A stretch of DNA of 64,000 bases, taken from contig NZ_CP113361.1 in NCBI RefSeq assembly GCF_026684035.1, positions 434,001-498,000 of the forward strand. Reading direction: 5' to 3'. Shown here piece by piece: positions 199 to 17,217 of the stretch. A program made the translations under genes and the position numbers. Below the pieces are notes generated by a model that did not search any database, was not told the origin of the DNA, and saw only the letters and a program-made list of their open reading frames with translations. How positions within the stretch are numbered: position 1 is the first letter of the stretch; every line of letters begins with the position of its first letter. This DNA is from Methanogenium organophilum. GTDB lineage: Archaea; Halobacteriota; Methanomicrobia; Methanomicrobiales; Methanomicrobiaceae.

Positions 199-506
199 AA
201 TATCTCTTTGAAATAATTACCGTGATTGCGCTTATCCTCTTTACCGGGGTTTTCCTCTATACCGACACCATCGTTCAGGCATCAGGGGAAGAAGGCTGGG
301 GAGGAACTGACGGTGTCGGTTCCGAGATGGTTGAAGAACTCGGCTATGAGCCATGGATTGACAATTCAGACTATACCTTCACCCCTCCGTCAGGCGAAAT
401 CGAATCCTGCCTGTTTGCTCTTCAGGCGGTATTCGGCGGTCTCCTGATTGGATGGATATTCGGGTCATGGGCCACAGAAAGAAGGATCAAAAAGAACCCA
501 AATTAA
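195..506 (+). CDS. cbiN: CbiN, cobalt transporter accessory subunit
   Basis: 103 residues, the normal size for CbiN. One membrane helix at about residues 5-27, an outward loop of about 45 residues rich in Gly, Asp and Glu, and a second helix at about 72-92 followed by a short basic tail. In known CbiMN systems the loop of CbiN touches CbiM and is needed for Co2+ uptake. The start overlaps the cbiM stop by 4 bp, which implies translational coupling. cbiQ follows after 18 bp. Confidence 0.92.
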   Translation: MKYLFEIITVIALILFTGVFLYTDTIVQASGEEGWGGTDGVGSEMVEELGYEPWIDNSDYTFTPPSGEIESCLFALQAVFGGLLIGWIFGSWATERRIKKNPN

Positions 507-524
507 TTTTTTTACGATACGTCG

Positions 525-1328: not shown

Positions 1329-2500
1329 ACTGTATCCTTGAACTAACCGATCTCGAATATCATTATCCAAACGGACCAAAGGCGCTGGAAAGTGTCAGTC
1401 TGCGTCTGATGCAGGGTGAGAAAATCGCTCTTGTCGGGCCAAACGGGGCAGGGAAATCAACTCTGCTCCTCATGCTGAACGGAATGCTCAGACCGGATTC
1501 CGGGACCGTCCGTTTTCGGGGAGAACCGATCTCATACTCGCGCAAAGCGCTGATGAACCTGAGAAAACAGGTTGGGTTCGTATTCCAGAATCCGGATCAC
1601 CAGATCATCGCCCCTACCGTATTCCAGGACGTGGCATTCGGGCCGGTAAATCTGGACTACACCGAAGAGGAGACGAAAACGTCAGTGGACGAAGCCCTCA
1701 TGTATGTAGGCCTTACAGAATTCGGGAGGCGTCCACCCCACAATCTCTCCGGCGGGGAGAAGAAAAAAGTGGCCATGGCGGGCGTGCTTGCGATGAACCC
1801 TGATGTGCTGGTATTCGATGAACCCACCAGCGCTCTTGACCCGGACAGTGCCCGGAGCATTATGGAGCTACTGGATGAACTCCATCATGCAGGAAAGAGC
1901 ATCATCATCTCAACCCATGATGTAGAACTCGCCTATACGTGGGCCGACCGGATCGTCCTCATGGATCAGGGGAAGATAATTCTCTGCAGCAAACCAACAG
2001 ATGCATTTTCTGACAAGGAATTACTGGCTGAAGCCAAATTATCAAAACCCGTTCTTGTCGAGCTATATGATGCACTGTGTGAACTGGGGATGGCAAAATC
2101 AGAGAAAATTCCCCGGTCCGTCCTTGATATTGTGGGGATACTTGGCATGGAGCATCATTGCTGCCGCGGTTGCAAAGCCCCGGGGTTCATTGTCCTTGAA
2201 GATGCTGATTTCCTGAACGAAGATCTGGCAGAGAGAATCGTCCATGATGAAGCAATACAGATTATTGGAGGAATGGGCTCTGTTGCAAAGAAACAGGCAA
2301 AAGATTACGGGATACCTCTCACCTACACGCATGGCGTTATTGATAAATGCCTTCTGAAAGCAATTTCGGGACAAAACTGCCTTATTATCACAAGCGGAGG
2401 CATGATAAAAAGAGTTCTTAGTCGTGTTGAAGAATTTAATGCCGAAAGCGGGAATACTATTGAAATTGTCACATTTGATAATTATCTGCACAACAATTGA
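1325..2500 (+). CDS. cbiO: CbiO, cobalt ECF transporter ATPase with an extra C-terminal domain
   Basis: 391 residues. Residues 1-260 form a standard ABC ATPase: Walker A GPNGAGKST (38-46), Q-loop QNPDHQ (88-93), signature LSGGEKKKVA (141-150), Walker B VLVFDEP (161-167) and switch His in STHD (196-199). It powers Co2+ import through CbiMNQ. The usual CbiO is about 270-280 residues; this one continues for about 125 more (265-391). The extension holds a Cys/His cluster HHCCRGC (277-283), then GGMGSVAKKQAKDYGI and LIITSGGMIKRVL, which look like a small alpha/beta domain. I do not recognise the domain; a metal-sensing or regulatory role is only inference from the Cys/His cluster. Confidence 0.93.
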   Translation: MNCILELTDLEYHYPNGPKALESVSLRLMQGEKIALVGPNGAGKSTLLLMLNGMLRPDSGTVRFRGEPISYSRKALMNLRKQVGFVFQNPDHQIIAPTVFQDVAFGPVNLDYTEEETKTSVDEALMYVGLTEFGRRPPHNLSGGEKKKVAMAGVLAMNPDVLVFDEPTSALDPDSARSIMELLDELHHAGKSIIISTHDVELAYTWADRIVLMDQGKIILCSKPTDAFSDKELLAEAKLSKPVLVELYDALCELGMAKSEKIPRSVLDIVGILGMEHHCCRGCKAPGFIVLEDADFLNEDLAERIVHDEAIQIIGGMGSVAKKQAKDYGIPLTYTHGVIDKCLLKAISGQNCLIITSGGMIKRVLSRVEEFNAESGNTIEIVTFDNYLHNN

Positions 2501-2655: not shown

Positions 2656-3237
2656 CTAAAAATCGCCTGCCATAAGCACAAACAGGTCTGATCCGGGAAC
2701 AGGCGGAGTATCCGTATCACCAATAGCAATTCTTTCATCCGGATACCCCAGCCGCTCACAGATGGCGATCCTGCACTGCAGGGAATGTGCCTTCAGTGCT
2801 TCTGCAGGAATTGAGGGAACAAAGGCAGGATCTGCAATGACAAAGGCAGTCCTGCCTCTCCTGATTTCAAAAATTATATCCAGAATGGCCTGTTCATGAT
2901 CCTTCGCATGGGCGTTCACGATGGCAGTCTTCGTCAGGGGAATGTGCAATTTTGCACAGGCATACTGGTATGACGAGATGCCGGAGATGACATCACCCCC
3001 AAGATACCCGAGCCCTGCAAGCATCGGGTCTCCTGTGGAGAGCACAACCGCCGTCTCCGGGAGATCCCGGAGCGCCTTATAGTCCGTGATGACATGGACG
3101 GAGCAGCAGGCAGGGATCTGCCCTGCAGCCCGTTCAATTGCCCGCTCGGAACCATAGATCTCTTTCGCATCCCGGATGGCTGCAATCGCCGCTTCGGTGA
3201 GCATGCCCGGCCCGCACCCGACACCGACGACCTTCAT
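2656..3237 (-). CDS. cbiE: CbiE, cobalt-precorrin-7 (C5)-methyltransferase
   Basis: 193 residues, the size of a stand-alone CbiE. The N-terminus VGVGCGPGMLTEAAIAAI has the glycine-rich SAM-binding signature of the corrin methyltransferase family, followed by VVLSTGDPMLAGLGYL, the substrate-side GDP motif. The enzyme methylates C5 of cobalt-precorrin-7 with S-adenosylmethionine to give cobalt-precorrin-8. CbiT, with which it is often fused as CobL, is a separate gene at the other end of this operon. It is the last gene of the minus-strand operon and its start overlaps the cbiD stop by 4 bp. It converges on cbiO across a 155-bp gap. Confidence 0.9.
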   Translation of the reverse strand: MKVVGVGCGPGMLTEAAIAAIRDAKEIYGSERAIERAAGQIPACCSVHVITDYKALRDLPETAVVLSTGDPMLAGLGYLGGDVISGISSYQYACAKLHIPLTKTAIVNAHAKDHEQAILDIIFEIRRGRTAFVIADPAFVPSIPAEALKAHSLQCRIAICERLGYPDERIAIGDTDTPPVPGSDLFVLMAGDF

Positions 3238-4244
3238 TGCGAATCCCCCTGCACATGCCCCTCACGGTCAACAATGACCACCCGCATATTCGGCATTCTT
3301 CGTTTGTAGTCCAGGAGATTCTGCTCCAGTAGTCTTGTCCAATTTTCTGACATCGTCGACTCCTCAACCGTTTCATACCCGCTGCCATCCAGAATATCCG
3401 GATTGATAAATTTCAGGATAAGCGCCGGAAGACCGCAGAGAACTGCTTTCCCTCCAGCCGCTTCAATCCCCTTTCCCATAAATTTGCCCACCAGCACCAC
3501 CTCACTATCCGGAAAGAGCATCCTCGCATACCGGAGGCCCACTCTCCCGGTGGTCAGGACCGGCCTTTCTGCACGACGAATTCTCTCAAACACATCATCT
3601 GAGAGATGGTCATCCCACGGTTCAACAAGCCCGGTCGACCCCAGAACAGAAATCCCTCCGATAACACCTACTTTCGGGTTGAGGGTCTCTCTTCCAATTG
3701 CTGCACCGTCCGGGATGGTGAGTTTAACCACAACCCCGGGGAGGTGCAGCTCATCTGCCGCCTCCTTTGCTGCACCCCGGATTGTCGTCCACGACGGCGG
3801 GCTGACGGCGGGATCACCGACAGCATATCGCGGTGTCTCCCGTACAAACCGCCCGATGCCTTCCCCCACATGGATGGTGATGCCGGATGCCGTTTCCTGC
3901 GCTTCTGCACAAAACAGCATGTTGGCCGTGATATCATCCGTATAATCCCCGGAATATTTCCTCGCAGAACCAGACCCGTCCTTCCCGACTGCAGCGACTT
4001 CGCACCGGAGGCCACAGGGAAGAGTGATGAACACCGACGATACCGGTTTCCGCAGGGAAAGCACCGCAGCCTTGCAGGCGGCAGCGGCGGTTGTCCCGGT
4101 GGTAAACCCCCTTCTCAGGATCGTGCCCCCCGATGTGAGAACGGCAAGCCCGTCTACCACCTGCCTGCGGGCATCTGCATCCGTGCATGCCAATACCCAT
4201 CCTTCGGGATACTCATAGCCGGTAACCGGGTCTCGGATACTCAT
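3234..4244 (-). CDS. cbiD: CbiD, cobalt-precorrin-5B (C1)-methyltransferase
   Basis: 336 residues. The family hallmark RRGFTTGTTAAAACKAA lies near residue 45, and GVIGGISVLGSTGLVEP and TGRVGLRYAR further on are also typical. CbiD transfers a methyl group to C1 of cobalt-precorrin-5B in the anaerobic pathway; it is unrelated in fold to the other methyltransferases of the operon. About 40 residues precede the hallmark (MSIRDPVTGYEYPEGW...). Coupled to cbiE by a 4-bp overlap and separated from cbiC by 3 bp. Confidence 0.93.
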   Translation of the reverse strand: MSIRDPVTGYEYPEGWVLACTDADARRQVVDGLAVLTSGGTILRRGFTTGTTAAAACKAAVLSLRKPVSSVFITLPCGLRCEVAAVGKDGSGSARKYSGDYTDDITANMLFCAEAQETASGITIHVGEGIGRFVRETPRYAVGDPAVSPPSWTTIRGAAKEAADELHLPGVVVKLTIPDGAAIGRETLNPKVGVIGGISVLGSTGLVEPWDDHLSDDVFERIRRAERPVLTTGRVGLRYARMLFPDSEVVLVGKFMGKGIEAAGGKAVLCGLPALILKFINPDILDGSGYETVEESTMSENWTRLLEQNLLDYKRRMPNMRVVIVDREGHVQGDSQ

Positions 4245-4247
4245 ATG

Positions 4248-4880
4248 CTATCGCTGGTTTTCAACGTACATGGTGATAATCTCATTTAGGGAAGAGACCG
4301 CAGGAGGGGTCCCTCCCCGTGTTCCTACGTTTGATATTGATGGAAGGTCCTTTGTCCGGAGAACCTCTTTTGATTCCTTTGCATTGACAAAACCGACTGG
4401 CGTGCCAATAACAAGCGCAGGGCGGACACCTTCGTCGATCATCCTGCAAACGGTGAGAAGGGCAGACGGAGCATTGCCGATCACAATGATTGCATCTTCA
4501 AGAGTATGCCGCAGTGACATAAACCCTGCTGAAGTCCGCGTTATTCCATATTCCTGAGAGAGTGCGGCACCGAAATCCAGAGCACAGATCACCTCGGAAT
4601 GATGTTCAGTCTTCCGGATTCCCGTCTGGACCATCCTGATGTCCGTAATGACCGGTCTCCCTGCAGAGAGGGCACGAAGCCCCGCTTCTATCGGATTGTT
4701 TCTGAACGCCATCAGGTCAGCCATGATGAAATCCCCGACGGATATGGCGCAACGCTGTCGGATTCTGTCCTCGGGGGTCTCATTGCCGACCACCATGCGG
4801 GCAAGCCCCCTGCTTGTCGAAGATATCTGGTATCCTTCTTTTGTGTCCGCTCCCGGATCAATATACGTATTTTCTGTCAT
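4248..4880 (-). CDS. cbiC: CbiC, cobalt-precorrin-8 methylmutase
   Basis: 210 residues, normal for CbiC/CobH. Recognisable segments are DPGADTKEGYQISSTSRG (start), GIRKTEHHSEVICAL with the catalytic His region, IGNAPSALLTVCRMIDEG and VGTPVGFVNAKESKE. The enzyme moves the methyl group from C11 to C12 and so makes cobyrinate. The chosen ATG lies 23 bp inside the end of cbiH, which fits the tight packing of the operon. Confidence 0.93.
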   Translation of the reverse strand: MTENTYIDPGADTKEGYQISSTSRGLARMVVGNETPEDRIRQRCAISVGDFIMADLMAFRNNPIEAGLRALSAGRPVITDIRMVQTGIRKTEHHSEVICALDFGAALSQEYGITRTSAGFMSLRHTLEDAIIVIGNAPSALLTVCRMIDEGVRPALVIGTPVGFVNAKESKEVLRTKDLPSISNVGTRGGTPPAVSSLNEIITMYVENQR

Positions 4881-5634
4881 AACCCCTCGGTGTGATCATC
4901 ATATCTTTTTCGCCAATGGTCCCGATGCGTGACTCATCTCCGCCGATGATGACAATGGAGCGCATATCAACAAAGCTGTCATCCAAAAACAGCGATTTCA
5001 GGGTAAAGAACCGGACCTCCTGTTCGTCACGGAATGCGTTTTTAACCACGGTTACCGGCACGTCGTCGTCCCGGTATTTCAGCGCAATGGTGAGCGCCTG
5101 TGCAAGGTTATCCGGCCGTCCTCTGCTCTTCGGGTTGTACACGGCAACCGGCACCCCCATCTGAAAGGCACAGTCCATCCGTTTACAGATCACCTCCCAT
5201 GGGGTCAGAAGGTCTGAGAGCGAGAGAGTGACATAGTCTCCCGAGAGGGGAGAGCCTGCAAGGGAAGCAGCCGCAGTCGCCGCGGTCACCCCGGGCACCA
5301 CCTCATAATCGATCACGGACGCATCATGCTCAAGCACTTCCAGCACAATACTGGCCATGCCATATACACCCGGGTCCCCGCCGCTCACCATGCAGACCTT
5401 CTTCTCTCTGGCAAGTTCAACACAGCGCCGGGCACGCTCAACCTCCCTGCCCATCGAGCTCCGGATGACCTCCTTTCCCTCAGCAAGGTCCTCAACAAGG
5501 CGGAGATAAAAATCATTTCCGATGATAATATCCGATTCAAGAATGGCTTCTTTCGCCCGTCCGGTAAGCTGTTCGGTTCTTCCTGGGCCAATACCCACAA
5601 TGAAGAGTTTTCCTCTGTTATCTGATGACGGCAA
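4858..5634 (-). CDS. cbiH: CbiH, cobalt-factor III (C17)-methyltransferase, ring contraction
   Basis: 258 residues. The N-terminus LFIVGIGPGRTEQLTGRA is the SAM-methyltransferase signature, and VCMVSGGDPGVYGMASIV with EVVPGVTAATAAASLAG are the conserved core motifs of the CbiH/CobJ group. It methylates C17 and contracts the ring, giving cobalt-precorrin-4. The gene overlaps the cbiG stop by 17 bp and the cbiC start by 23 bp. Confidence 0.92.
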   Translation of the reverse strand: MPSSDNRGKLFIVGIGPGRTEQLTGRAKEAILESDIIIGNDFYLRLVEDLAEGKEVIRSSMGREVERARRCVELAREKKVCMVSGGDPGVYGMASIVLEVLEHDASVIDYEVVPGVTAATAAASLAGSPLSGDYVTLSLSDLLTPWEVICKRMDCAFQMGVPVAVYNPKSRGRPDNLAQALTIALKYRDDDVPVTVVKNAFRDEQEVRFFTLKSLFLDDSFVDMRSIVIIGGDESRIGTIGEKDMMITPRGYDRKYVY

Positions 5635-6493
5635 TGGTCACTCCTCCATATTTTTGTTTTTTCATGATGACTTCCTTCCTCTTCGAGAGAGCCATTGCGG
5701 CGGGTTCTGCCACCCCCGGCAGTCCCAGTTTGTCACGGGCACGTGACGGCGAGGGGGGGTTTTCCGCCCGGATGAATGCATCATCCACAAAGATCAGGGT
5801 CCCGCCCAGTTCCCCGATCGCCTGAATGAGACCGCTTTCATCTTTTTTTATCTCGGCTGTCGCATATGCGAGGACATCCTCTTTGGTGATGCCTGCATCA
5901 GCATATGCCGATGCAAGTGCGTGGAGAATCTCCTCTTTACCCGCCCCTCTCCTGCAGCCGACGCCGACGATATATTCACCGTTCTTCAGGAGCACCGACA
6001 CGCCGGGGGGTGCAATGGCGATGGCCGGCGGCTCAATCAGGTGCACGGCGACATCACCGTTGAGAATTGCCGCATTAACCGCCCGTGTCGAGTCCTTGTT
6101 AATGATTTCAAGCCCCCGTTCCTGTGCTGTGGATTCCACCGACGGCAGTCCACGCGTCTCGGTTGCGGTCGTGATCACCGGATGCAGCCCAAACTCTTCC
6201 AGACGTTTTGCCGTATCATTTCCTCCGTGATGGCCACCAAGGACGGGGATCGCGTACCGGAAGTCCGGGCTGACGACCACCAGACAGGGGTCGGTCCATT
6301 TGTCGCGGAGATGCGGGGCGGCGGACCGGACCGCAATCCCCGTGGACATCACGGCGATGATGGTGGTGTAATCTTCAAACGCCCGGCGGAATGCGTCTTT
6401 GGAATATGCAACAACGTCGGCATCCATCCGGTCAGCGAGCTCTTGTGCCCGTGCATCCGGTTCGTTCAGGGTGATTACGACAGTGTCTGTCAT
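5618..6493 (-). CDS. cbiG: CbiG, cobalt-precorrin-5A hydrolase
   Basis: 291 residues with the three expected parts: an N-terminal domain with VMSTGIAVRSAAPHLRDKW, a central segment GGHHGGNDTAKRLEEFGLHP, and a C-terminal domain with GVGCRRGAGKEEILHAL and GLPGVAEPAAMALS. CbiG opens the delta-lactone of cobalt-precorrin-5A and releases the two-carbon fragment as acetaldehyde, a step unique to the anaerobic route. Its presence, with cbiD and CbiH-type enzymes, confirms that the pathway inserts cobalt early and does not need oxygen. Confidence 0.93.
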   Translation of the reverse strand: MTDTVVITLNEPDARAQELADRMDADVVAYSKDAFRRAFEDYTTIIAVMSTGIAVRSAAPHLRDKWTDPCLVVVSPDFRYAIPVLGGHHGGNDTAKRLEEFGLHPVITTATETRGLPSVESTAQERGLEIINKDSTRAVNAAILNGDVAVHLIEPPAIAIAPPGVSVLLKNGEYIVGVGCRRGAGKEEILHALASAYADAGITKEDVLAYATAEIKKDESGLIQAIGELGGTLIFVDDAFIRAENPPSPSRARDKLGLPGVAEPAAMALSKRKEVIMKKQKYGGVTIAVIR

Positions 6494-7215
6494 CCGTAGA
6501 GGTGGGAATGGGTATAGGACGGCCCATCGGGATTCACCACTTCACCGATGATGATGAGTGCGGTTTTCTCAATGCCCGCGGCCCGTGCCTTCTCTGCGAT
6601 ATCAGCGACCGTCCCCCGCACAATCTTCTCGTCGGGCCATGTCGCGTGATAGATGACCGCCGCAGGCGTCTGGGGGGGGCACTGCACCTGTTCAAAGATC
6701 TTCTCCATGTGCTCTGTCCCCAGAAATACGACCATCGTCTGCCCGAGTCCAGAGAATTCGCGAATCTGGTCCTCGTCCAGCGTCTTTCCAGCCGGACGGG
6801 TGATGATGACCGATTCCGAGACACCTTTCAGGGTATACTGAATGCCAAGCGACGCTGCCGCTCCGAAAAAGGACGAGACGCCCGGAACCCGAACGACCTC
6901 GATCCCCGCATTGTTCAGGATCTCCACCTGCTCGATGATTGCACCGTAGAGTGCCGGGTCTCCGGAATGGAGGCGAACGACCGTTTTGCCGTCCTTTGCC
7001 GCCGCAATCATGATCTCTGTCATCTCCGCCAGTTTCATCCCCCAACTGTCATATTTTTCTGCCGCAGGGCAGGCATGAACAAGTTCCGGGTTGACAAGAG
7101 ACCCGGCATAGATGAGGACATCGGCCCGGTCCAGGATCTCTTTTCCCTTTACCGTGATCAGGCCCGGATCGCCGCATCCGGCCCCGACAATGAATATTTT
7201 CTGCATCTCTCTCAC
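6490..7215 (-). CDS. cbiF: CbiF, cobalt-precorrin-4 (C11)-methyltransferase
   Basis: 241 residues. IFIVGAGCGDPGLITVKG is the family SAM signature; DVLIYAGSLVNPELV and LHSGDPALYGAIIEQ are specific to CbiF/CobM, as is PGVSSFFGAAASLGIQYTLKG. The enzyme methylates C11 of cobalt-precorrin-4 to give 5A, the substrate of the neighbouring CbiG. Overlaps of 4 bp on both sides. A second ATG three codons downstream is an equally possible start. Confidence 0.94.
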   Translation of the reverse strand: MREMQKIFIVGAGCGDPGLITVKGKEILDRADVLIYAGSLVNPELVHACPAAEKYDSWGMKLAEMTEIMIAAAKDGKTVVRLHSGDPALYGAIIEQVEILNNAGIEVVRVPGVSSFFGAAASLGIQYTLKGVSESVIITRPAGKTLDEDQIREFSGLGQTMVVFLGTEHMEKIFEQVQCPPQTPAAVIYHATWPDEKIVRGTVADIAEKARAAGIEKTALIIIGEVVNPDGPSYTHSHLYG

Positions 7216-7820
7216 TTCCCGGCATATAATATACTAAAATACGGACTCTCTTCCGGGAGTTCGTCTGTATGATAGATCTTCTGGCCGTCCATATACATTT
7301 TTTCAGCCAGAATAAAGGTAGTATATCCTGATTTCTTCAGTTCGTCTGCCGTTTCTCTGGGCCTTCGTACCTTCATCCGGAGCAGTGCGGTATTCTCAGA
7401 CCCGTCTGAGATCTCAATACCCCCGGAGAGGGAGAGACCGGTAGCAGCAGCGAACGCCGTTATTGAGCTGACACCGGGGACAGTGCTATACTCAATATCC
7501 GGATATTTCTCATCCAGCACCGCACAGAGCCTGCCAAATGTCCCGTAAAAATTCGGGTCACCCAGAATACAGAATACGGCAAGACCGTTTTCTGCAGCCG
7601 GTGCGATTGTGTCAGCGTTTGTCTCCATGCATTCTGTGATGTAGCCTTCATCAGCAGTCATGGGAAAGGAGAGCACCACCGGGTCCTCCCGGTATGGTGC
7701 AATAATCTCCTTTGCCACATTTCCGGGTACAAATACCTGATCGGCTTCTTCAATCAGTTTCACTGCCTTTACGGTCAAAAGCTCTGAGTCTCCTGGGCCA
7801 ATACCAACAGCAACAAGCAT
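7212..7820 (-). CDS. cbiL: CbiL, cobalt-factor II (C20)-methyltransferase
   Basis: 202 residues, a little short for CbiL (often 220-240). Motifs: VAVGIGPGDSELLTVKAV (SAM signature), AVFCILGDPNFYGTFGRL and TVPGVSSITAFAAATGLSL. It adds the C20 methyl group, the first peripheral methylation after cobalt insertion. It lies between cbiT (1 bp away) and cbiF (4-bp overlap). The pathway order and the GDPNFYGTF motif favour CbiL over the other methyltransferases. Confidence 0.9.
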   Translation of the reverse strand: MLVAVGIGPGDSELLTVKAVKLIEEADQVFVPGNVAKEIIAPYREDPVVLSFPMTADEGYITECMETNADTIAPAAENGLAVFCILGDPNFYGTFGRLCAVLDEKYPDIEYSTVPGVSSITAFAAATGLSLSGGIEISDGSENTALLRMKVRRPRETADELKKSGYTTFILAEKMYMDGQKIYHTDELPEESPYFSILYAGK

Positions 7821-8348
7821 CTACTGCTTCACCTCTCCAACGATAATAAAAACAGGATGAATCGGTTTGAACATCAGATCACCCACCAGTTCATAGGACC
7901 GTGACACCTGAAGATGTACGACTTCAACAAATATACCAAGCTCTTTCATTTTTGCAACCGCCCGTGAGACAGTGTCCAGAAGAACAGCATTTACCACGAT
8001 TCTTCCACTGACTTTCTCTGCCAGTTTGTCGAGGACTGTCTCGATGTTTCCCGAACCACCAATAAAGGCACAGTCAAGGGCACCGATCTCATCTAAGGCA
8101 TGGACAGCATCTCCATGCAGCAGGGTGATATTCTCTGCTCCCGCGTTTTCAATCTCCCGCTTTGCATAATCAATTGCTTCAGCACGCCGGTCAATCGCGT
8201 ATATGTGACAGCAGATGCCGGACGCCTGAATGGAGATTTTGCCGGTCCCGCACCCTACGTCAGCCATGACATCCCCGTCCTGTATTCCGAGTTTAAAGAG
8301 GGATACTGCCATCACCTCGTCCTGTGTCGGTCCGCCTTTGAGTCGCAT
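7821..8348 (-). CDS. cbiT: CbiT, cobalt-precorrin-6B (C15)-methyltransferase, decarboxylating
   Basis: About 175 residues from the ATG at 8348. The GGPTQDEVMAVSLFKLG segment followed by ADVGCGTGKISI is the start of a class I Rossmann SAM methyltransferase of the CbiT type; FIGGSGNIETVLDKL is the second hallmark. CbiT methylates C15 and decarboxylates the C12 acetate. The frame stays open to an ATG at 8417 (198 residues), but those extra codons read through an AT-rich stretch with a perfect dyad (8359-8382) and a TATA-like sequence about 25-30 bp before 8348, so I prefer the shorter, probably leaderless form. First gene of the minus-strand cbi operon. Confidence 0.88.
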   Translation of the reverse strand: MRLKGGPTQDEVMAVSLFKLGIQDGDVMADVGCGTGKISIQASGICCHIYAIDRRAEAIDYAKREIENAGAENITLLHGDAVHALDEIGALDCAFIGGSGNIETVLDKLAEKVSGRIVVNAVLLDTVSRAVAKMKELGIFVEVVHLQVSRSYELVGDLMFKPIHPVFIIVGEVKQ

Positions 8349-8358
8349 CAATATAGAA

Positions 8359-8382
8359 TTTATTTGTTTTAATTCAAATAAA
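8359..8382 (-). promoter_or_regulatory. Putative promoter/operator dyad of the cbiT-E operon
   Basis: Perfect 8-bp inverted repeat TTTATTTG-N8-CAAATAAA in an AT-rich patch just upstream of the ATG at 8348. On the minus strand it overlaps a TATA-like ACTTTATTTGAA at the distance expected for a leaderless start. A repressor site for a cobalt or cobamide regulator is an inference. Confidence 0.45.
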
Positions 8383-8535
8383 GTTTTAATTGTTCGTGGG
8401 CGAATTTGAGGTGCCATAAAAATGCACGGATGATAAACCGCTAAAATCGCGTAATTGGAATAAACGGAGGAAAAAAGGAATACACTCCCCTGTAGAAGAA
8501 TTCAGGATACTTTTCTGTCGCAATAAATTGAAAAG

Positions 8536-8566: not shown

Positions 8567-9283
8567 ATGCAGGACATCACCATAATCCTCACAAGCGGCA
8601 CCCTCATTGGAATCGCCATTCTTGCGATAAAATCAGGCCTCGGGTGCGGCCTGTCAGGACTGAATAATAAGGAAATCATCGGTTTTGCCGCTGGATACGG
8701 CATAATTGCATTCCTTGTCGGACTGGTTGCAACCATGGTATCTCCCGACGTGACCGATATGGTATTAGGCGCGGGTATTGGCATGCACCTAATCATTGCT
8801 GCCGGACTGCTCTATTTCGGAATACAAACACGAAAACGATGGTTATCCGGGAAAAAAGACATCTCAAGAAGAACATTTCTCTGGGTATCCGTTCCGTGTC
8901 CGGCATGCATGACCGCAACCTTCCTCGCCTGTATTGTCCTCATCGATACGACCGGCATTTCAGGTATCGCCATTAGTGTTCTGGTATCCCTGATCCTTGC
9001 AGCTGGCATTGTCATATCAGCGATCGGAATTTCCCTGGCATCCACCCGTGGCGGATGGAACAATCCGTCCAGCCTGGGAAGCGCCATGATTATGCTTGGC
9101 CTCTTCTATTTGCTCTGCCCGCTCTTCATCCCGGCATACATTGAGGCGCAACAGATCAAGGGTCAGATCACCATGTCATTCCCGACAAACACAGGAACCG
9201 GACTCCTCATTCTCTTCATACCCATCTGTGCCGGGTTCGTGATCAGTAGAATACAGCGAGCACGGTCAGGAGGGATATTATAA
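8567..9283 (+). CDS. DUF2162-type predicted transporter
   Basis: 238 residues, mostly hydrophobic, about six or seven membrane helices. Cysteines lie in membrane-border motifs: SGLGCGLSG (23-31) and VPCPACMTA (109-117, a CPxC motif). It resembles the DUF2162 family of predicted transporters, whose members occur beside MotA/ExbB-type channels and CobN-like proteins. The substrate is unknown; the CPxC motif and the cobalt/cobamide neighbours suggest a metal, a metal chelate, or electrons through a thiol pair, all inference. First gene of a coupled three-gene set, ending 1 bp inside the next gene. Confidence 0.8.
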   Translation: MQDITIILTSGTLIGIAILAIKSGLGCGLSGLNNKEIIGFAAGYGIIAFLVGLVATMVSPDVTDMVLGAGIGMHLIIAAGLLYFGIQTRKRWLSGKKDISRRTFLWVSVPCPACMTATFLACIVLIDTTGISGIAISVLVSLILAAGIVISAIGISLASTRGGWNNPSSLGSAMIMLGLFYLLCPLFIPAYIEAQQIKGQITMSFPTNTGTGLLILFIPICAGFVISRIQRARSGGIL

Positions 9284-9900
9284 TGGAAGTCGCATCATCC
9301 GTCATGGAAGTACTGTTCCTCTTCTCTGAAGCACTGCTGTATCCGGCAATCCTGCTTTTAATCGCCCTTGTCATCTGGGCACTCGTCATGATTGGCCAGG
9401 TCGTCTCCGAATATTCAGGAAGAGTCAGGGACATCGGAAAGATTCGGGAGGCAGGAAAACAGGCACACAAAGAGATTACTGCGGATAACCCCGCCGGTGC
9501 AAGAAAGGCATTTACAAACATCCCCCTGAACCCGATGGTCAGGAAATTTGTCACCGATATCAGCGGCTTCTTTGGAGATAGCAAATTGCCCATCGAAGCA
9601 GAAAAACTGCTCCAGGACTATGAACTCATCATCGGAAAGGAATTACAGCACCTGAAGATCCTCACCCGTACCGCCCCGATGCTTGGCCTTATGGGAACAC
9701 TCATCCCGCTTGGCCCGGCACTGATGGGACTATCCTCAGGAAATATCCAGGCACTGGCATCCAATCTGGTCGTTGCCTTCAGCACCACGGTGCTGGGCCT
9801 GCTTGTTGGTGGAATCGCCTATGCTATCATGGTGGTCAGGCGTGGCTGGTATTTCCAGGACTTCTCTGACATGGAGTACATTGTGGAGGGACTTGAATGA
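9283..9900 (+). CDS. MotA/TolQ/ExbB-family proton channel protein
   Basis: 205 residues. One helix at about 19-42, a cytoplasmic part of about 85 residues, then the conserved two-helix core: TRTAPMLGLMGTLIPLG (128-144) and ASNLVVAFSTTVLGLLVG (159-176). This is the signature region of TolQ/ExbB/MotA, which form proton-conducting pentamers that turn proton-motive force into work on a partner. The next gene supplies an ExbD-like partner (DUF2149). No flagellar or TonB gene is nearby, and an archaeon has no outer membrane, so the partner is more likely the outward CobN-like protein encoded next. Confidence 0.9.
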   Translation: MEVASSVMEVLFLFSEALLYPAILLLIALVIWALVMIGQVVSEYSGRVRDIGKIREAGKQAHKEITADNPAGARKAFTNIPLNPMVRKFVTDISGFFGDSKLPIEAEKLLQDYELIIGKELQHLKILTRTAPMLGLMGTLIPLGPALMGLSSGNIQALASNLVVAFSTTVLGLLVGGIAYAIMVVRRGWYFQDFSDMEYIVEGLE

Positions 9901-10259
9901 GAAAGAGACAGAGACAAAGACAAAGACAAAGACGCTATCTCACAGAAGAGGAGGACGATGACCCCCTTGCAGGCATGGCCAACCTCTTTGATGTTGCCAT
10001 GGTCTTTGCCGTCGCTCTCCTCGTGGCACTGGTACTCTCCTATAATATGCCCGAGATGCTGGACGATCAGTCCACCGTGACTCTCGTGAAAAACCCCGGC
10101 ACACCCGACATGGAGATCATCGTCAAAGACCAGAATGAGATCACCGTGCTGAATATGACAGATCAGGTGTCAGGCGGACAGGGCACCAAAATGGGCACTG
10201 CCTATCGTTTGGAGAATGGTCAGGTCATATATGTACCTGATACCGAAACAACCGAATAA
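9897..10259 (+). CDS. DUF2149 protein, ExbD/TolR-like partner of the proton channel
   Basis: 120 residues. A basic/acidic N-terminus (RQRQRQRQRR then EEEDDD), one helix at about 32-49 that begins with an aspartate (NLFDVAMVFAVALLVA) and an extracytoplasmic domain of about 70 residues. ExbD and TolR share this plan, with the helix-border Asp as the protonation site, so Asp32 is the probable counterpart. The match to DUF2149 is from memory of the family and context. The N-terminal Arg-Gln run is encoded by a six-base microsatellite (9902-9933). Overlaps the channel gene by 4 bp. Confidence 0.82.
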   Translation: MRKRQRQRQRQRRYLTEEEDDDPLAGMANLFDVAMVFAVALLVALVLSYNMPEMLDDQSTVTLVKNPGTPDMEIIVKDQNEITVLNMTDQVSGGQGTKMGTAYRLENGQVIYVPDTETTE

Positions 10260-10287
10260 TAGTGCATTATTTCACATTACAACAACC

Positions 10288-10305
10288 CCCCCTTCACGAA
10301 GGGGG
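10288..10305 (+). terminator. Hairpin after the DUF2149 gene
   Basis: CCCCCTT-CACG-AAGGGGG, a perfect 7-bp stem with a 4-base loop, 28 bp after the stop at 10259 and followed within a few bases by a short T-run (GTTTTG). It could end the three-gene transcript or reduce read-through into cobN. Confidence 0.5.
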
Positions 10306-10353
10306 CATCTGTTTTGATCCATGTTTGTCTATCATTTTATACCCCCTCAAACA

Positions 10354-10391
10354 AGTTAAGTTACAAATAGACAATTTAATTTACTTTAACT
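10354..10391 (+). promoter_or_regulatory. AT-rich dyad upstream of the CobN-like gene
   Basis: AGTTAA (10354-10359) and TTAACT (10386-10391) form an inverted repeat around an AT-rich core that includes CAATTTAATTTAC. It lies 57-94 bp before the cobN ATG, in the right place for a promoter plus operator. The gene itself has a GAGGT ribosome site just before its ATG, so it probably has its own leader and promoter. Confidence 0.35.
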
Positions 10392-10447
10392 CAAAATAAT
10401 TTTCAGTTCGGTCGGCCAACCCGCCACACCGGATAATTGAGGTATAC

Positions 10448-13400
10448 ATGAGATTAAACGAAAAAAACCGATGGGAGTGGCTCTGTGCCATGATGCTCAT
10501 TGTTTTCCTGATCGTTGCACCGGCAGCAGCAGAGGAAATGGGCAATTCGGGAATGAATGTGACAACACCATATGAATCTGTAACAGAAGAGATTCAGGAG
10601 AACGTCACAGAAGTTGAAATACCGGTACCGACAGCAGAAACAACACCCGCACCGGAAGCACCGGTGATGGAACGCCACAGACTGGCGATCGTCACAGGAG
10701 ATCCCTGCAACACAGACGATCTGAATAACGCCACTCTGGATGCACCACTGGACGTAACACTCCTGAATAATTCCGAAGCGCTCACATACGATTTTTCTTC
10801 GGAAGCACTCATCTTTGCCGCGTCCGTGGATGAAGCAGCACTGGAACAGATCTGTGCTACGATGAAACCGAATGTGTCAGTAGTGGTCTACGACCTTCCC
10901 GACGGGATGGATGTTGGAACACCGGCAGATGCTACCATTACAGCATACTGGACCAACTGCTGTACAGAGAACTTCCACAATATGATTGTCTACATGGACA
11001 ATATCTACTTCGAAAATGATACCCCTGTAGATCCGCCTGTCATACCGGAATGTGAAACCGAACACGTCATTACCATCATTACCAATGATCCGGAAAGACA
11101 GAGTTCGGTTACCAATGCAACCGGCATGACAGATCTGATTGTCACACTCTGCAATGAAACAGAAGCAGGACTTCATGACTTCAGTGCAGATGAACTGATC
11201 TTTGCCGCATCTGTCAATAACGGAACGCTGGCACTGATTGATTCGGCCATCACTGAGAACACGACCCTTGTGGTGTATGAAGCACCGGTCAATTCCACCA
11301 TTGGAACTCCCGCAGACGAGACGATTATTCAGTTGTGGGAAGAAGGCGGCGATGAAAACGTCCTGAACCTGCTCCGGCATATCGAGGAGACCTACTTCGG
11401 AAATGAAACAGCGCTCCTCCGGCAGCAGGCAACACTCCTCGCAGAAGCAGAAGGGGAAGAACTCTCGATTGTGATCATCATCGGTGGAGAAAGCTATGTC
11501 CCGATGTATCTTGAAGCAGGAGAGAAGTGCCCCGCAAATGTCACGGTCTATTCATCCAAACTCCTGCCGGATGATCTTAACCTTACCGGATATGACCTGA
11601 TCTTCATGGAGATGTTTGGTGCAGGTATCGACATCATTGAACCTGCGGTGAACAACGCAACCGCTGCAGGCGTTCCGGTAGCGGTCATCCATGCAGGGAC
11701 ATATGAGTACCTGGGGACCGTCAATATGACTCCCCATGCGTATGTGGAAGAATACTGGGAGAACAGTGGACCAGAGAATGCACAGAGACTGATTAATTAT
11801 CTCAGTGCCGCCATCTGTGGTGCCGATATCCCCATCGAGGATCCTATTCAGACCCCTTCAGAGTGTATTTATCACCCTGACTCGGAAGAGCTGTTTGAGA
11901 CTCTGGACGCCTACATGGAATGGTACGCCACAAACGGCACCTACGATCTGACAAAACCAACGATTGGCATCATCTTCTATGACAGCCACTACAAATCAGG
12001 CGATCTCGCTGGTGACCATGCGATCATGAGAGAATTCGAGGCACAGGGCGCAAACATCCTTACTGTCTTCCTGGATTATAATAATCCACACGTCATTGAC
12101 CGCTTCTTCGTCAAAGACGGAGTTCCGGTCGTCGACGCCATCGTCAACACCCGATGCTTCAGGTTCTATGGCTCAGGGTCAAATCCCGAGAGAGGAATTG
12201 AGGAGCTCACCACCTACAACATACCAATCATCAACGCTCTGGTGGACTATTCAAAAACACCGGAAGAGTGGGTGAACTGCACGGACGGCATCACTTCCTC
12301 AAAGGTCGGTTACTCCATCGGAATGCCGGAACTGGACGGCCAGACTGAGTTCATCTGGACCGCTGGCAGAGGAATTGATCCCCGGACAGAGGCTATCGGA
12401 TTCCGCCCCATCACCCCTGTCGCAGAACAGATCAGCTGGCTTGTAGAAAGAGTCATTGCACTCTCAGATCTCAGAAACAACGCAAATTCCGGGAAAAAAG
12501 TCGCCATAGTCTACTATAACCACGGCGGTGGCAGGGACAATCTTGGCGCCAGCTACCTTGACATCGTGCCGAGTCTGACCAATCTCCTGGATGCCATGGA
12601 GGATGAGGGCTACGCAATTGATGGCGAGGTCCCAACCGAGGACGAACTCCTTGACCTGATGCTCCTTCAGGGAAGAAATGTCGGTACATGGGCTCCCGGA
12701 GAGCTTGACAGCATGGTAGAAGAAGGGGACGTGGTCCTGCTTCCTGCCGAACAGTATGCTGAATGGTTCCACGAGCTCCCGGCAGACAAGCAGGAAGAGG
12801 TGATCGCGAAATGGGGAGAGCCACCTGGCGAGATCATGGTCTATAACAACGGCGGACAGGACTATCTTGTGATTCCCACCGTCTCCTTTGGTAATGTAAT
12901 TCTTACTCCACAGCCTACCAGAGGATGGCTGCAGGACGAGGCAGTACTGTACCACGACACAGATCTTCCTCCCCACCACCAGTATATCGCCTTCTATCTC
13001 TGGCTGCAGAATCAGTTTGATGCTGACGCCATTGTGCACTTCGGAAGACACGGCACGCAGGAGTGGCTCCCCGGAAAAGAACGTGGACTCTCCGCAACAG
13101 ACGACTGGCCACCGCTCCTCATTGGTGACATTCCCAACATCTACCCATACATTATGGACGGACTCGGTGAAGGAACACAGGCAAAGAGGAGAGGCAATGC
13201 CGTCATTATTGACCACCTGACTCCGCCAATCGTTGCGGCAGGTCTATACGGTGACTTTTCGACTCTTCACGAAAAGATACACGCATACAGTGCAACAAAC
13301 ATCACCGTGAAAGAGGAATACCGGAAAAGCATCACCACCCTGTACCAGGAGATGAATATCAACGCCACCCTCGACTGCTCCGTAGATGAGATTGAGGCGA

Positions 13401-15499
13401 TGTCGGATGACGAATTCAGCGAATTCATCAACGGTGACCTCCACGAGTACCTGCACGAACTCGGTGACGAGTTCATCCCCTATGGACTGCATATTCTCGG
13501 GGAACCGCCGGAAGATGGCGATCTTGTATCCCTCGTCAGGGCGATGCTCGGTGAGGAGTTTGAGGAAGATGTCGGAACCATCTATCCGGAACCGGATAGT
13601 ATTTCAGCGGCACACGGCAACTGCACGGTCATTGAAGCCCTCCTTACAGAAGTGCTTCTCAATGGAACCGACCCTGCAGCGGCACAGGAAACCGTTCTCG
13701 GCGATTCTTCAGCTGCTGTAACCGCAGACCTGAACACGGCAATCGATTATGCCGCAGACATCGAAGCGTGCTCTGTTGAAATCCCCGCAATCATCAATGC
13801 GCTTGGCGGCGGCTATATCCCACCCAATACCGGCGGCGATCCGGTCAGAAGCCCTGAAAGTCTCCCCACCGGCAACAATTTCCACTCCTTTGACTCACGA
13901 CTGATGCCCACAGAGGAGGCATGGAATGTCGGTGTGCAGATGGCAGAGGAGATGCTCGAGCAGTACGGCGAAGCACACGACGGTGCCTATCCTGACAAGG
14001 CAGCATTTGTCCTCTGGGCATGTGAATCGATGCGTCATGAGGGTGTGACAGAATGTGAAGCACTCTACCTTCTCGGGGTAAAACCTGTATGGAGCAAAGG
14101 GAAGGTCAAAGGCGTGGAACTCATCCCGTCCGCTGAACTCGGACGGCCCAGAATTGATGTGGTCTTTATCGCATCAGGACTCTACAGGGATACTTTCTCG
14201 GATAAAATTGAACTGCTCGATGATGCAGTACGCCTTGCAGCACAGGCCGAAGACGACCTCTATCCGAACTATGTGTCAGAGAACAGCGAGGAGCTGTATG
14301 CAACGCTCATCACCAACGGATATGACGAGGAAACCGCCCGGCGCCTCTCAATGTCAAGAATATTCTCCGCCGCACCGGGTGCATACGGCACCGGCCTGTC
14401 TTCTGCGATTGATTCCAGTGACACATGGGAGAATGAGGACAAACTCACTGACCTCTACCTCAGTAAACTGGGATATGTCTATAATGGCGAAGACTGGGGC
14501 GAACCAAACAAAGCTCTCTTCCGGGATAACCTCGGGGATGTAGATGCAGCGGTCCACAGCCGGAGTTCCAATCTCTACGGACTTGTTGACAACGACGACT
14601 GTTTCCAGTATTTCGGAGGTCTCTCAATGGTGATTAAGTCAATCTCAGGCACAGGGCCTGATATGTTCATCACCGATCTCCGGTCCGCCGGCAAACCGCA
14701 GACCACAACCCTCAGTGATTTCATCCTGAAAGAACTGGATGCACGTTATTTCAATCCGAAATGGATTGAAGGGATGATGGAACACGGCTATGCAGGGGCA
14801 CGCTACATGGACAAAAAATTCCTGGAGAACCTCTGGGGATGGAGTGTGACAAACCCTGACATCATCTCGAGCGATGTCTGGGACAAGGTCTTTGATGTCT
14901 ATGTCAATGACAAGAACAATCTCGGTCTCGATGAATTCTTCGCCGAGAACCCCTACGCATACCAGTCCATGGTCGGACGGATGATGGAAGCCGCCCGCAA
15001 AGGCTACTGGGACGCTGACAGTGAAGCACTGGAAACACTTGCACGTGAATACCAGGAGTCTGTCCGGACGAATGGTGTTACATGCTGCCACCACACATGC
15101 GGTAACCTTGCACTTTCAAGCTATATTCAGGGTGTGATGAATGCCTTGGCGCAGAAAAACGCTGATGACAGCTCTGATGACCCGTCAGCAGAAGTGCTGA
15201 AGCAGACTGCAGCGGCAGCGGCACCAACAACGGAGATACCGTTGGCAGTGGAGGACGACCAGTCCGGTGCGGAATCCATGACCAACACGACAGTCACCGG
15301 CGGATATGGTGAAAACGCACAGGAACCCGCTGCTCCTCAGGTGGCACCACCCGATGTCGGTGTCTCCGGACAGGTGATGGAGAAAGTTACGAAAAATAAC
15401 GCGGACAGCGGATCAACCAGCACACCCATTGCACCGATTATCATCGTGTGCATTATCATCGCTGCCGTCTTTGTAGGTATCCGGTGGAAGAAAATATAA
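10448..15499 (+). CDS. CobN-like chelatase, exported and membrane-anchored
   Basis: 1683 residues. An N-terminal signal sequence (about 1-29), three related domains of about 120 residues each (about 77-193, 206-319, 338-459), then the CobN/BchH-type chelatase core (about 480-1550) with the conserved block HFGRHGTQEWLPGKERGL near residue 864 and a Cys/His cluster TCCHHTCGN near 1545. A low-complexity linker and one helix (about 1657-1677) with a basic end form a C-terminal anchor. CobN proteins bind tetrapyrroles and handle their metal, but the cobalamin enzyme is cytoplasmic and needs CobS/CobT. This one faces outward, has no AAA+ partner here, and follows an ExbB/DUF2149 pair. Likely role: surface capture or metal removal/insertion on a corrinoid or porphyrinoid, driven by the proton-motive force (inference). 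Confidence 0.88.
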   Translation: MRLNEKNRWEWLCAMMLIVFLIVAPAAAEEMGNSGMNVTTPYESVTEEIQENVTEVEIPVPTAETTPAPEAPVMERHRLAIVTGDPCNTDDLNNATLDAPLDVTLLNNSEALTYDFSSEALIFAASVDEAALEQICATMKPNVSVVVYDLPDGMDVGTPADATITAYWTNCCTENFHNMIVYMDNIYFENDTPVDPPVIPECETEHVITIITNDPERQSSVTNATGMTDLIVTLCNETEAGLHDFSADELIFAASVNNGTLALIDSAITENTTLVVYEAPVNSTIGTPADETIIQLWEEGGDENVLNLLRHIEETYFGNETALLRQQATLLAEAEGEELSIVIIIGGESYVPMYLEAGEKCPANVTVYSSKLLPDDLNLTGYDLIFMEMFGAGIDIIEPAVNNATAAGVPVAVIHAGTYEYLGTVNMTPHAYVEEYWENSGPENAQRLINYLSAAICGADIPIEDPIQTPSECIYHPDSEELFETLDAYMEWYATNGTYDLTKPTIGIIFYDSHYKSGDLAGDHAIMREFEAQGANILTVFLDYNNPHVIDRFFVKDGVPVVDAIVNTRCFRFYGSGSNPERGIEELTTYNIPIINALVDYSKTPEEWVNCTDGITSSKVGYSIGMPELDGQTEFIWTAGRGIDPRTEAIGFRPITPVAEQISWLVERVIALSDLRNNANSGKKVAIVYYNHGGGRDNLGASYLDIVPSLTNLLDAMEDEGYAIDGEVPTEDELLDLMLLQGRNVGTWAPGELDSMVEEGDVVLLPAEQYAEWFHELPADKQEEVIAKWGEPPGEIMVYNNGGQDYLVIPTVSFGNVILTPQPTRGWLQDEAVLYHDTDLPPHHQYIAFYLWLQNQFDADAIVHFGRHGTQEWLPGKERGLSATDDWPPLLIGDIPNIYPYIMDGLGEGTQAKRRGNAVIIDHLTPPIVAAGLYGDFSTLHEKIHAYSATNITVKEEYRKSITTLYQEMNINATLDCSVDEIEAMSDDEFSEFINGDLHEYLHELGDEFIPYGLHILGEPPEDGDLVSLVRAMLGEEFEEDVGTIYPEPDSISAAHGNCTVIEALLTEVLLNGTDPAAAQETVLGDSSAAVTADLNTAIDYAADIEACSVEIPAIINALGGGYIPPNTGGDPVRSPESLPTGNNFHSFDSRLMPTEEAWNVGVQMAEEMLEQYGEAHDGAYPDKAAFVLWACESMRHEGVTECEALYLLGVKPVWSKGKVKGVELIPSAELGRPRIDVVFIASGLYRDTFSDKIELLDDAVRLAAQAEDDLYPNYVSENSEELYATLITNGYDEETARRLSMSRIFSAAPGAYGTGLSSAIDSSDTWENEDKLTDLYLSKLGYVYNGEDWGEPNKALFRDNLGDVDAAVHSRSSNLYGLVDNDDCFQYFGGLSMVIKSISGTGPDMFITDLRSAGKPQTTTLSDFILKELDARYFNPKWIEGMMEHGYAGARYMDKKFLENLWGWSVTNPDIISSDVWDKVFDVYVNDKNNLGLDEFFAENPYAYQSMVGRMMEAARKGYWDADSEALETLAREYQESVRTNGVTCCHHTCGNLALSSYIQGVMNALAQKNADDSSDDPSAEVLKQTAAAAAPTTEIPLAVEDDQSGAESMTNTTVTGGYGENAQEPAAPQVAPPDVGVSGQVMEKVTKNNADSGSTSTPIAPIIIVCIIIAAVFVGIRWKKI

Positions 15500-15897: not shown

Positions 15898-17217
15898 TCA
15901 TTGCACAGACTGAATGGTATGCACCAGCCCGGATGCCATTTTTTCCGTGAAATATGCATGGGTATACCCTGCCAGCACATTCTGAAGATAAATCCCGTCT
16001 TTGCCGTCTTCAATACCACGGCCACGCTTTAATTCAAGGGCGAACCGCACATCTGCGGCGGCATCCACTTTGGTATAATGGAATTCATGCCCCCGGTATG
16101 AGGTTCCTTTCGGAAGGAGACAGTCTTCTGCCGTGCACGCTGCATCCACATATCCCAGTGCCTGAAACCGCCCCATCTTCACCGTCTCCGCCGGTATGAC
16201 ACCGCACATCTTTGTGCGTATGCCGTCCATCTCGATACTCTCCGTGAGATAGGTAAGCCCCCCGCATTCTGCATAGATGGGAAGTCCCCTGTCTGCTGCC
16301 CTCTTCACCTCTGCCCTGCAGGGCGATTGTTCCAGTTCTGTGCGGTGAAGTTCGGGATATCCGCCGCCGAAATACAGTGCATCCACATCAGGCAGGTGCT
16401 CTGTGAGGGGACTGAAGAAGACCAGTTCTGCACCCGCATGTCGTAGCCGGTCAAAATTATCCGCGTAATAGAAATTGAAGGCCGGATCATAGGCAACCCC
16501 AATCCGGACCGCATGTGCCGTAAGAGCACCATCAGGTTCACCGTCCCGGACAGCAAAATTGCTCTGTGCAATTCCTATGATTGCATCGACATCACAGTTC
16601 TCCTCAAGAATATCCCTGAATTCAGAAATTGAACTGGTTTCATGTGCCATCTGGAGACCGAGATGCCTGCTCTCAACACTTTTCTCCCTATCCCAGGGGA
16701 CATACCCGAACGCAGGTGCGGCAAGAGACACCGCAATCATCGCTGCGTGTCGTTTACTGCCGACCCGGTTGAAGATGGCACCACCGATGTTCACATTCCG
16801 GTCAAATGTGGCAAACCCCAACACCTGCGCATTAACACTGCGTGAGGCACCTTTTGCATCAACAACCAGAACAACCGGACAGCCAAGAATCTTTGCCACA
16901 TGTGCGGTGCTGCCGGTGTCCTCCCCTTCAAGCCCGTCAAAAAGGCCCATGACTCCTTCAATCACGGCAATATCGGCACCGGCAGACGCACGCGTGAACG
17001 TGTCAATGACCCCGTCCTCTCCCATCATATAGGGGTCAAGGTTCCGGGACTGTCTCCCGCATATAGCGGTGTGATGGGTGGGGTCAATAAAATCCGGGCC
17101 GACTTTGAACGGCTGGACGATGAGCCCCCGTTTCACGAGAGCGGACATCAGTGCACCCGAGATGGTGGTCTTTCCGCACCCGCTGTGGGTGCCGGCGATG
17201 ATGATGGTGGGAATCAT
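15898..17217 (-). CDS. Cobyrinate or Ni-sirohydrochlorin a,c-diamide synthase (CbiA/CfbB family)
   Basis: 439 residues. The N-terminal ATPase domain starts IIIAGTHSGCGKTTISGAL with a P-loop, followed by KVGPDFIDPTHHTAICGR. The C-terminal class I glutaminase-like domain has DALYFGGGYPELHRTELEQ and the nucleophile region PIYAECGGLTYLTES. The enzyme amidates the a- and c-acetate side chains using glutamine and ATP. Methanogens have two close relatives, CbiA (cobyrinate) and CfbB (Ni-sirohydrochlorin, for F430); the sequence alone does not separate them for me. Nearness to the cbi operon favours CbiA, but it is not in that operon and stands alone. Confidence 0.88.
   Translation of the reverse strand: MIPTIIIAGTHSGCGKTTISGALMSALVKRGLIVQPFKVGPDFIDPTHHTAICGRQSRNLDPYMMGEDGVIDTFTRASAGADIAVIEGVMGLFDGLEGEDTGSTAHVAKILGCPVVLVVDAKGASRSVNAQVLGFATFDRNVNIGGAIFNRVGSKRHAAMIAVSLAAPAFGYVPWDREKSVESRHLGLQMAHETSSISEFRDILEENCDVDAIIGIAQSNFAVRDGEPDGALTAHAVRIGVAYDPAFNFYYADNFDRLRHAGAELVFFSPLTEHLPDVDALYFGGGYPELHRTELEQSPCRAEVKRAADRGLPIYAECGGLTYLTESIEMDGIRTKMCGVIPAETVKMGRFQALGYVDAACTAEDCLLPKGTSYRGHEFHYTKVDAAADVRFALELKRGRGIEDGKDGIYLQNVLAGYTHAYFTEKMASGLVHTIQSVQ

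Follow-up and report, generated by a model that had tools for sequence, protein, structure and literature searches.

A putatively exported CobN-like chelatase encoded with an ExbB–DUF2149 pair beside the corrin synthesis genes of Methanogenium organophilum

The four-gene locus and the two kinds of CobN

The window analysed here is a stretch of 64,000 nucleotides from the Methanogenium organophilum genome (NZ_CP113361.1, positions 434,001 to 498,000), and its locus of interest is a run of four consecutive + strand genes at window positions 8567-15499. The first gene (8567..9283) encodes a DUF2162 membrane protein of 238 residues with about 6-7 helices (PF09930, 3.6e-48). The second (9283..9900) encodes an ExbB/TolQ/MotA-type channel of 205 residues (PF01618, 2.8e-10), a homologue of HmuU of Bacteroidota, and the third (9897..10259) a single-helix, ExbD-like DUF2149 protein of 120 residues (PF09919, 5.8e-34), a homologue of HmuV. 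The fourth gene (10448..15499) encodes a CobN-like class I chelatase of 1683 residues, which matches PF02514 with 1183 bits over residues 435-1527. Neighbours among the first three genes share 1-4 bp, and a gap of 188 bp separates the DUF2149 gene from the CobN gene. All four genes therefore lie on the strand and in the place given by an earlier model-made reading of the same DNA, hereafter the sequence-only reading. The genome (2.65 Mb, a single contig, 99.9% complete) has a single CobN and a single DUF2149, both at this locus.

A survey of 197 genomes from the same phylum as the window organism has shown that DUF2149 is present in 68 genomes and DUF2162 in 62, and that where both are present they nearly always lie about 700 bp apart on one strand, leaving room for one ExbB gene. 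The CobN counts rest on the 150 CobN matches listed, taken by score, from these genomes, and CobN were counted as long when their open frame had 1500 residues or more, a split picked after the list was seen. Among the matches listed, 32 of 42 long CobN lie within 12 kb of DUF2149, versus 4 of 108 short ones (Fisher p about 1e-19), and all 42 long CobN come from DUF2149-bearing genomes. Of the four short ones close to DUF2149, three resemble true module members, being co-directional and about 417 bp away, so the length split, if anything, understates the link to DUF2149. In 26 of the 41 archaeal loci examined in detail, all four genes are ordered, close together and on one strand. The co-location across archaea that the sequence-only reading had proposed to look for is thus strong, and, judged from gene neighbourhoods, DUF2162–ExbB–DUF2149–CobN is almost certainly a conserved module.

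Two variations on this arrangement were observed. Two or three tandem long CobN genes follow one ExbB–DUF2149 set in Methanosarcinaceae-like genomes (loci L009, L014, L018, L020, L023 and L037), which suggests one motor for several chelatases. At L041:10419-14284 and L042:6666-10463, an ExbB–DUF2149 pair without DUF2162 or CobN adjoins a gene for an S-layer-domain protein of ~870 residues; either this lone pair works with a CobN encoded elsewhere, or the motor has another partner.

A gene of the ChlI/ChlD (CobS/CobT) type was found neither in window positions 1-30000 by phmmer nor in the whole 2.65 Mb genome by a PF01078 search, whose matches are MCM, LonB, a MoxR-type AAA protein, an ABC protein and RuvB, and so the absence of CobS/CobT noticed earlier extends to the genome. 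Soluble-CobN loci have such an AAA+ gene in 14 of 20 cases, module loci in 0 of 41. In a tree built from 85 chelatase bodies, soluble CobN is separated from ExbB–DUF2149-linked CobN with a support of 0.989, and the linked side includes HmuS of Bacteroidota, proven in 2025 to be a haem dechelatase (PMC12583661). The nearest branch to HmuS (1.0) is a mixed one of bacterial and archaeal members (1.0), its sister group, and monophyly of the archaeal members alone is unsupported (0.36). On the combined evidence of tree, membrane topology and gene neighbours, the chelatases fall into two kinds, namely soluble CobN with an AAA+ gene and anchored CobN with ExbB–DUF2149, HmuS belonging to the second. 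Motor partner and phylogeny therefore point the same way: a change of motor and a change of membrane side appear to have gone together in the chelatase, and we infer from the 85-body tree that this change occurred once.

The CobN-like protein and its active site

The CobN-like protein begins with a classic signal peptide of about residues 1-29 (10448..10534, + strand), MRLNEKNRWEWLCAMMLIVFLIVAPAAA followed by EE, and ends with a membrane helix and a basic tail (APIIIVCIIIAAVFVGIRWKKI; 15415..15496, + strand). At the C-terminus, 40 of 41 archaeal module CobN and 34 of 34 HmuS have a membrane segment followed by a basic tail, and the membrane segment is found in none of 22 soluble archaeal CobN. 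A hydrophobic N-terminus is present in nearly all module CobN and HmuS and is weak or absent in soluble CobN. The signal peptide and C-terminal anchor claimed by the sequence-only reading are borne out, and the protein is very probably exported and anchored on the outer side of the cytoplasmic membrane. Ahead of the chelatase head and core, a head-type domain occurs twice in tandem, at residues 75-200 and at 201-325 (10670..11422, + strand); the pairwise score of the two copies is 219, compared with a maximum of 51 in 200 shuffles.

The protein reaches the cut-off of no CobN or BchH model in NCBIfam, its best CobN score being 1356.7 bits where 1619 is required. A predicted structure covering residues 345-1535 (predicted local distance difference test (pLDDT) 89.8, predicted template modelling score 0.89) matches HmuS 9d26 with E 4.4e-86 and template modelling (TM) scores of 0.85/0.81, and CobN 7c6o with E 9.8e-81 and TM 0.84/0.85. 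With 9fpc, a corrin-site fragment of CobN, the TM score is 0.94 over the fragment and the root-mean-square deviation is 2.0. The sequence-only reading had staked its proposal on the protein having a tetrapyrrole site; examined in this respect, the chelatase body folds like HmuS and CobN.

Motif alignment places His868 of the window protein (codon 13049..13051, + strand) at His538 of HmuS, a catalytic histidine shared by 37 of 40 archaeal members, all 34 HmuS and all 22 soluble CobN. The surrounding HmuS motif HFG(T/A)HG is present as HFGRHG, with Arg replacing Thr/Ala. The second motif, DNDDCFQYFGG (residues 1381-1391; 14588..14620, + strand), follows the corrin-CobN pattern DxDDxFQYxGG and so has the corrin-type D-D-x-x-Q near the active site. 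It is closer to DSDDYFQYHGG (7c6o) and DSDDYYQFEGG (9uk9) of corrin CobN than to DHVYEFMGG of HmuS or DHYFDTLGG of BchH. It puts Asp1384 at the position of HmuS His1209 and Gln1387 at that of HmuS Glu1212, and the HmuS motif LSLDHxxEFMGG (His1209, Glu1212) is not found in the window protein. The haem ligands Met79 and His254 are both present in 34 of 34 HmuS; in the Met79 column the window has no Met and 1 of 40 archaeal members has one, and in the His254 column none of the 40 archaeal members, window included, has His. The Met-rich insertion of HmuS domain IV is also absent, the window having at most 4 Met per 80 residues between the motifs versus 16 in HmuS. Because these HmuS-defining residues are missing, the window protein is not an archaeal HmuS, contrary to the closest form of the parallel that had been drawn. 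The motif DNDDCFQYFGG is suggestive, and only suggestive, of a corrin substrate: one nickel-linked member has DHPFEY and another DNDDFFGF.

Two groups of relatives differ at these sites. In L013:1788-6551, L026:10235-14965 and L040:4687-9426, where the genes are ordered as in the window, the two active-site motifs have been exchanged in like manner with the operon intact: HFGxHG becomes FSIFS and DNDDxFQY becomes EHPMVAAY, and EGTQAKRRG becomes EGIFDRRRA. These proteins form a candidate retooled or non-catalytic subfamily. The archaeal module CobN at L011:10754-16930, L019:13150-18735 and L033:9937-16053 have an HmuS-like DHxxEF without the HmuS haem ligands, and their bodies are some 120-260 residues longer; they possibly act on different substrates within the same genomes.

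The channel pair, the metal and the proposed mechanism

HmuV of Bacteroidota is a DUF2149 protein (3.6e-35) and HmuU a MotA_ExbB protein. The window ExbB and Bacteroidota HmuU have in common the segment GLMGTLIPxGPAL and an ATTVxGL region, GLMGTLIP-GPAL being found from archaea to Bacteroides. The DUF2149 protein has the ExbD/TolR trait of a single membrane helix with a conserved Asp, although in Pfam it matches the DUF2149 family alone and no ExbD match was found. This residue, Asp32 (codon 9990..9992, + strand), stands at the start of the helix NLFDVAMVFAVAL and is conserved across the sequences compared, 40 from archaea and 30 from Bacteroidota. We take it to be placed like the proton-carrying Asp of ExbD.

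A search for TonB, with positive controls, found it in 0 of the 197 genomes surveyed from the phylum. In the bacterium Trichlorobacter lovleyi, the gene order is TonB receptor, DUF2162, ExbB, DUF2149, CobN, a separate ExbB, ExbD and TonB, and a second receptor. Because the archaeal genomes lack TonB and T. lovleyi has a separate ExbB–ExbD–TonB set, gene content indicates that the ExbB–DUF2149 pair probably serves the chelatase and not an outer-membrane receptor. According to the HmuS paper, the task of HmuU and HmuV is to energise HmuR, the receptor in the outer membrane (PMC12583661). That the proton-motive force acts on the chelatase is, from these genes, a reasonably probable proposition.

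The parallel with HmuS-T-U-V proposed by the sequence-only reading holds for S, U and V and is not supported for T. DUF2162 takes the slot of HmuT in the gene set, but HmuT has no detectable kinship to it: the hhalign probability is 6.9%, the two have no common Pfam family, and DUF2162 is above the cut-off in 0 of 198 Bacteroidota genomes, so that homology is unsupported. An alignment of 35 archaeal DUF2162 homologues has revealed invariant K22, G26, C27, Y44 and PCPxC (P110-C114). The invariant Cys and PCPxC prompted the idea of a DsbD-like electron carrier, for which no support was found. The AlphaFold model of DUF2162 (pLDDT 80.7) has no Foldseek match below E 0.001, and its middling matches mix sugar-porter, ZIP and other helical proteins, so neither a fold nor a transport role can be claimed for it.

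The window locus is flanked by cobalt and corrin genes. The cbiN, cbiQ and cbiO genes of a cobalt energy-coupling factor importer lie at 195..2500 (+ strand). A divergent cbiE-D-C-H-G-F-L-T cluster for cobalt-early corrin synthesis (2656..8417, - strand) starts 149 bp from the DUF2162 start codon. A cobyrinate a,c-diamide synthase gene, CobB/CbiA, follows at 15898..17217 (- strand); its product scores 470.6 bits against a cut-off of 254 and falls under the cut-off of the F430 enzyme CfbB. A small CbiX and FecCD-type importers, which may carry corrinoids, are encoded in the genome, CbiX elsewhere than at this locus.

Elsewhere, cbiT-cbiL-cbiF follow CobN within 10 bp at L015 and L030, and CbiM/CbiQ genes adjoin the module at L017, L031 and L033. 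Links to nickel are found in bacteria. On the Runella slithyformis plasmid pRUNSL01 (L121), ExbB–DUF2149–CobN lies within the hyp cluster (hypA-B-F ... C-D-E); upstream of ExbB, where the archaeal order has DUF2162, there is a gene for a 'urease accessory protein'. On the Azospirillum brasilense plasmid ABSP7_p4 (L122) the set lies beside nikR and an iron-type ABC importer. Conserved substrate genes were looked for around most Methanosarcina-type loci, where the neighbours (ribosomal, fibrillarin, NMD3 and glycan genes) proved uninformative. Two CobN-like proteins of Methanosarcina barkeri are up in Fe(II)/Cys and FeS2 cells versus Fe(II)/HS- cells, and the authors report no operon resembling the B. 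fragilis one (PMC10846266). Methanothermobacter marburgensis CobN1, which may be of either CobN kind, appears solely under nickel limitation (PMC12350162). These published data are compatible with a role in metal supply but do not decide the matter. Judged from motifs and neighbours, the chances of a cobalt or corrin substrate are evenly balanced.

These observations lead to a reading that is plausible and yet falls short of an even chance: the four genes may together encode a single membrane machine, a cobalt/corrin variant of the BtuS/HmuS kind that acts outside the cytoplasm as a (de)chelatase on a cobalt tetrapyrrole and is driven by the proton-motive force, its reaction, direction and substrate being what we infer. 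A tetrapyrrole would bind outside the cell at the head/neck of the chelatase. Protons entering through ExbB5–DUF2149 would then drive a conformational cycle in which the central cleft closes and the ring is bent, an analogue of the ATP-driven action of CobS/CobT (ChlI/ChlD) in the cytoplasm. His868 and Asp1384 may assist metal loss or, less likely, metal insertion. The product, including cobalt, would pass by way of DUF2162 or go to the adjacent CbiMNQO importer. The substrate would likely be a corrinoid from the environment or another cobalt tetrapyrrole, and cobalt or corrinoid would feed the surrounding cbi pathway. De-chelation, as distinct from insertion or pure binding, is a more tentative choice still; the small CbiX covers metal insertion for B12 synthesis, which argues against a synthetic role for the window CobN.

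Several points weigh against the cobalt de-chelation machine. Other branches adjoin nickel genes, and cobalt or corrin genes are nearby in just 6 of the 41 archaeal loci, with housekeeping neighbours elsewhere. Three relatives without the catalytic motif still retain the module. Cobalt is reportedly trapped once inside the corrin ring (PMC10206600), so that its removal would be hard and de-chelation is the weakest step. Purified HmuS strips iron from haem without the channel (PMC12583661), and the channel may therefore serve transport instead. No experiment on any archaeal member was found in the literature.

The main rival, though unlikely, is a machine for pure capture and import, in which the CobN-like protein would pick up a tetrapyrrole, a corrinoid or another, on the outside and, with ExbB–DUF2149 supplying the power, hand it over intact to DUF2162 with its metal unchanged. 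The resemblance of head and neck to periplasmic binding proteins (PMC12583661), the duplicated head domain of the window CobN, the multi-helix nature of DUF2162 and the three loci that lack both catalytic motifs yet keep the module are in its favour; however, the catalytic His is retained in the window as in nearly all members, HmuS of the same clade is a proven dechelatase, and the FecCD-type importers are already in the genome. It is quite improbable that the protein frees iron from haem as HmuS does. HmuS is its best solved match in both sequence and fold, two M. barkeri CobN-like proteins respond to Fe(II)/Cys and FeS2, and DHxxEF occurs in some archaeal members, but the window lacks Met79, His254, His1209, Glu1212 and the Met-rich insertion, and its neighbours are cobalt and not iron genes. 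No likelier is a nickel scavenger acting on F430, which methanogens release, or on nickel chelates: the hypABFCDE and nikR contexts of the bacterial members and the nickel-limited appearance of M. marburgensis CobN1, if of this kind, point that way, whereas the genes around the window CobN are for cobalt transport and corrin synthesis. A misplaced but otherwise ordinary cobaltochelatase, inserting cobalt late into the corrin ring, would account for the B12 gene context and the corrin-CobN motif, but it is rejected as very improbable given the signal peptide and anchor, the separate clade, the lack of CobS/CobT in the genome, and the presence of cobalt-early genes and a small CbiX.

A broader picture, more doubtful than the cobalt machine itself, is that class I chelatases have two interchangeable motors. 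An ancient clade would have swapped the AAA+ ATPase for a proton-driven ExbB–DUF2149 stator, moved outside and come to strip metals from tetrapyrroles or other chelates; with equal doubt, the metals would be iron from haem (hmu), cobalt from corrinoids (the window archaeon and T. lovleyi) and nickel in Runella and A. brasilense. If so, ExbB–DUF2149 would be a motor acting on an enzyme and not on TonB, a new job for the ExbB family; the model in which HmuU and HmuV power HmuR would need revision, and with it the account of how gut Bacteroidota use haem; and the module could be the first known route for reclaiming cobalt or nickel from tetrapyrroles. Many archaea carry the S-U-V part, some inside B12 gene clusters, and archaea without TonB isolate the role of ExbB–DUF2149, so that proton-motive drive of a class I (de)chelatase is directly testable.

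Comparison with known systems

The window CobN, predicted to be exported and anchored, groups with HmuS and is linked to ExbB and DUF2149, as are members of the BtuS/HmuS clade. It resembles HmuSTUV of Bacteroidota in its CobN fold, its N- and C-terminal membrane segments, its homologous ExbB (HmuU) and DUF2149 (HmuV) and its place in the same clade (0.989). It differs from HmuS in the haem ligands, the second motif and the Met-rich insertion described above, and from the operon in that DUF2162 replaces HmuT, the gene context is cobalt and the organism is without TonB. Of the full hmuYRSTUV operon, the window has homologues of U and V, no hmuY or hmuR gene, and no detectable homologue of HmuT. 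BtuS, the third CobN type, predicted to act in metalloporphyrin salvage (Rodionov 2003, as cited in PMC6460266), is likewise a membrane-anchored, extracytoplasmic CobN-like protein; it was described from Bacteroides, and the parts of the literature seen mention neither an archaeal ExbB–DUF2149 partner nor a corrin link.

CobNST cobaltochelatase and ChlHID magnesium chelatase have the same chelatase subunit fold and HxGxHG, corrin CobN having DD-x-x-Q as well, but they are cytoplasmic and driven by an AAA+ ATPase, whereas the window CobN is putatively exported and linked to a proton-channel pair without an AAA+ partner. The window pair resembles ExbB–ExbD–TonB and TolQ–TolR in combining an ExbB-type channel with a single-helix partner carrying a membrane Asp, and differs from them in having no TonB or outer membrane, in DUF2149 being a separate family and in the linked partner being CobN. 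The closest gene arrangement is the T. lovleyi pSZ77 locus, where DUF2162–ExbB–DUF2149–CobN are ordered alike and lie amid genes for cobalamin and CbiMNQO; unlike the window, it is bacterial and has TonB receptors and the separate ExbB–ExbD–TonB. The CobN of Trichlorobacter (Geobacter) lovleyi was noted in 2012 as of unknown role, the other three genes going unmentioned in the portion of that paper seen (PMC3403914). In the open literature, to which the search was confined, no paper was found on the archaeal four-gene module, on its split from AAA+-linked CobN or on the cobalt and nickel contexts. Hence, the window locus is a variant of the BtuS/HmuS kind, and the archaeal module, its split from AAA+-linked CobN and its metal contexts appear to be new.

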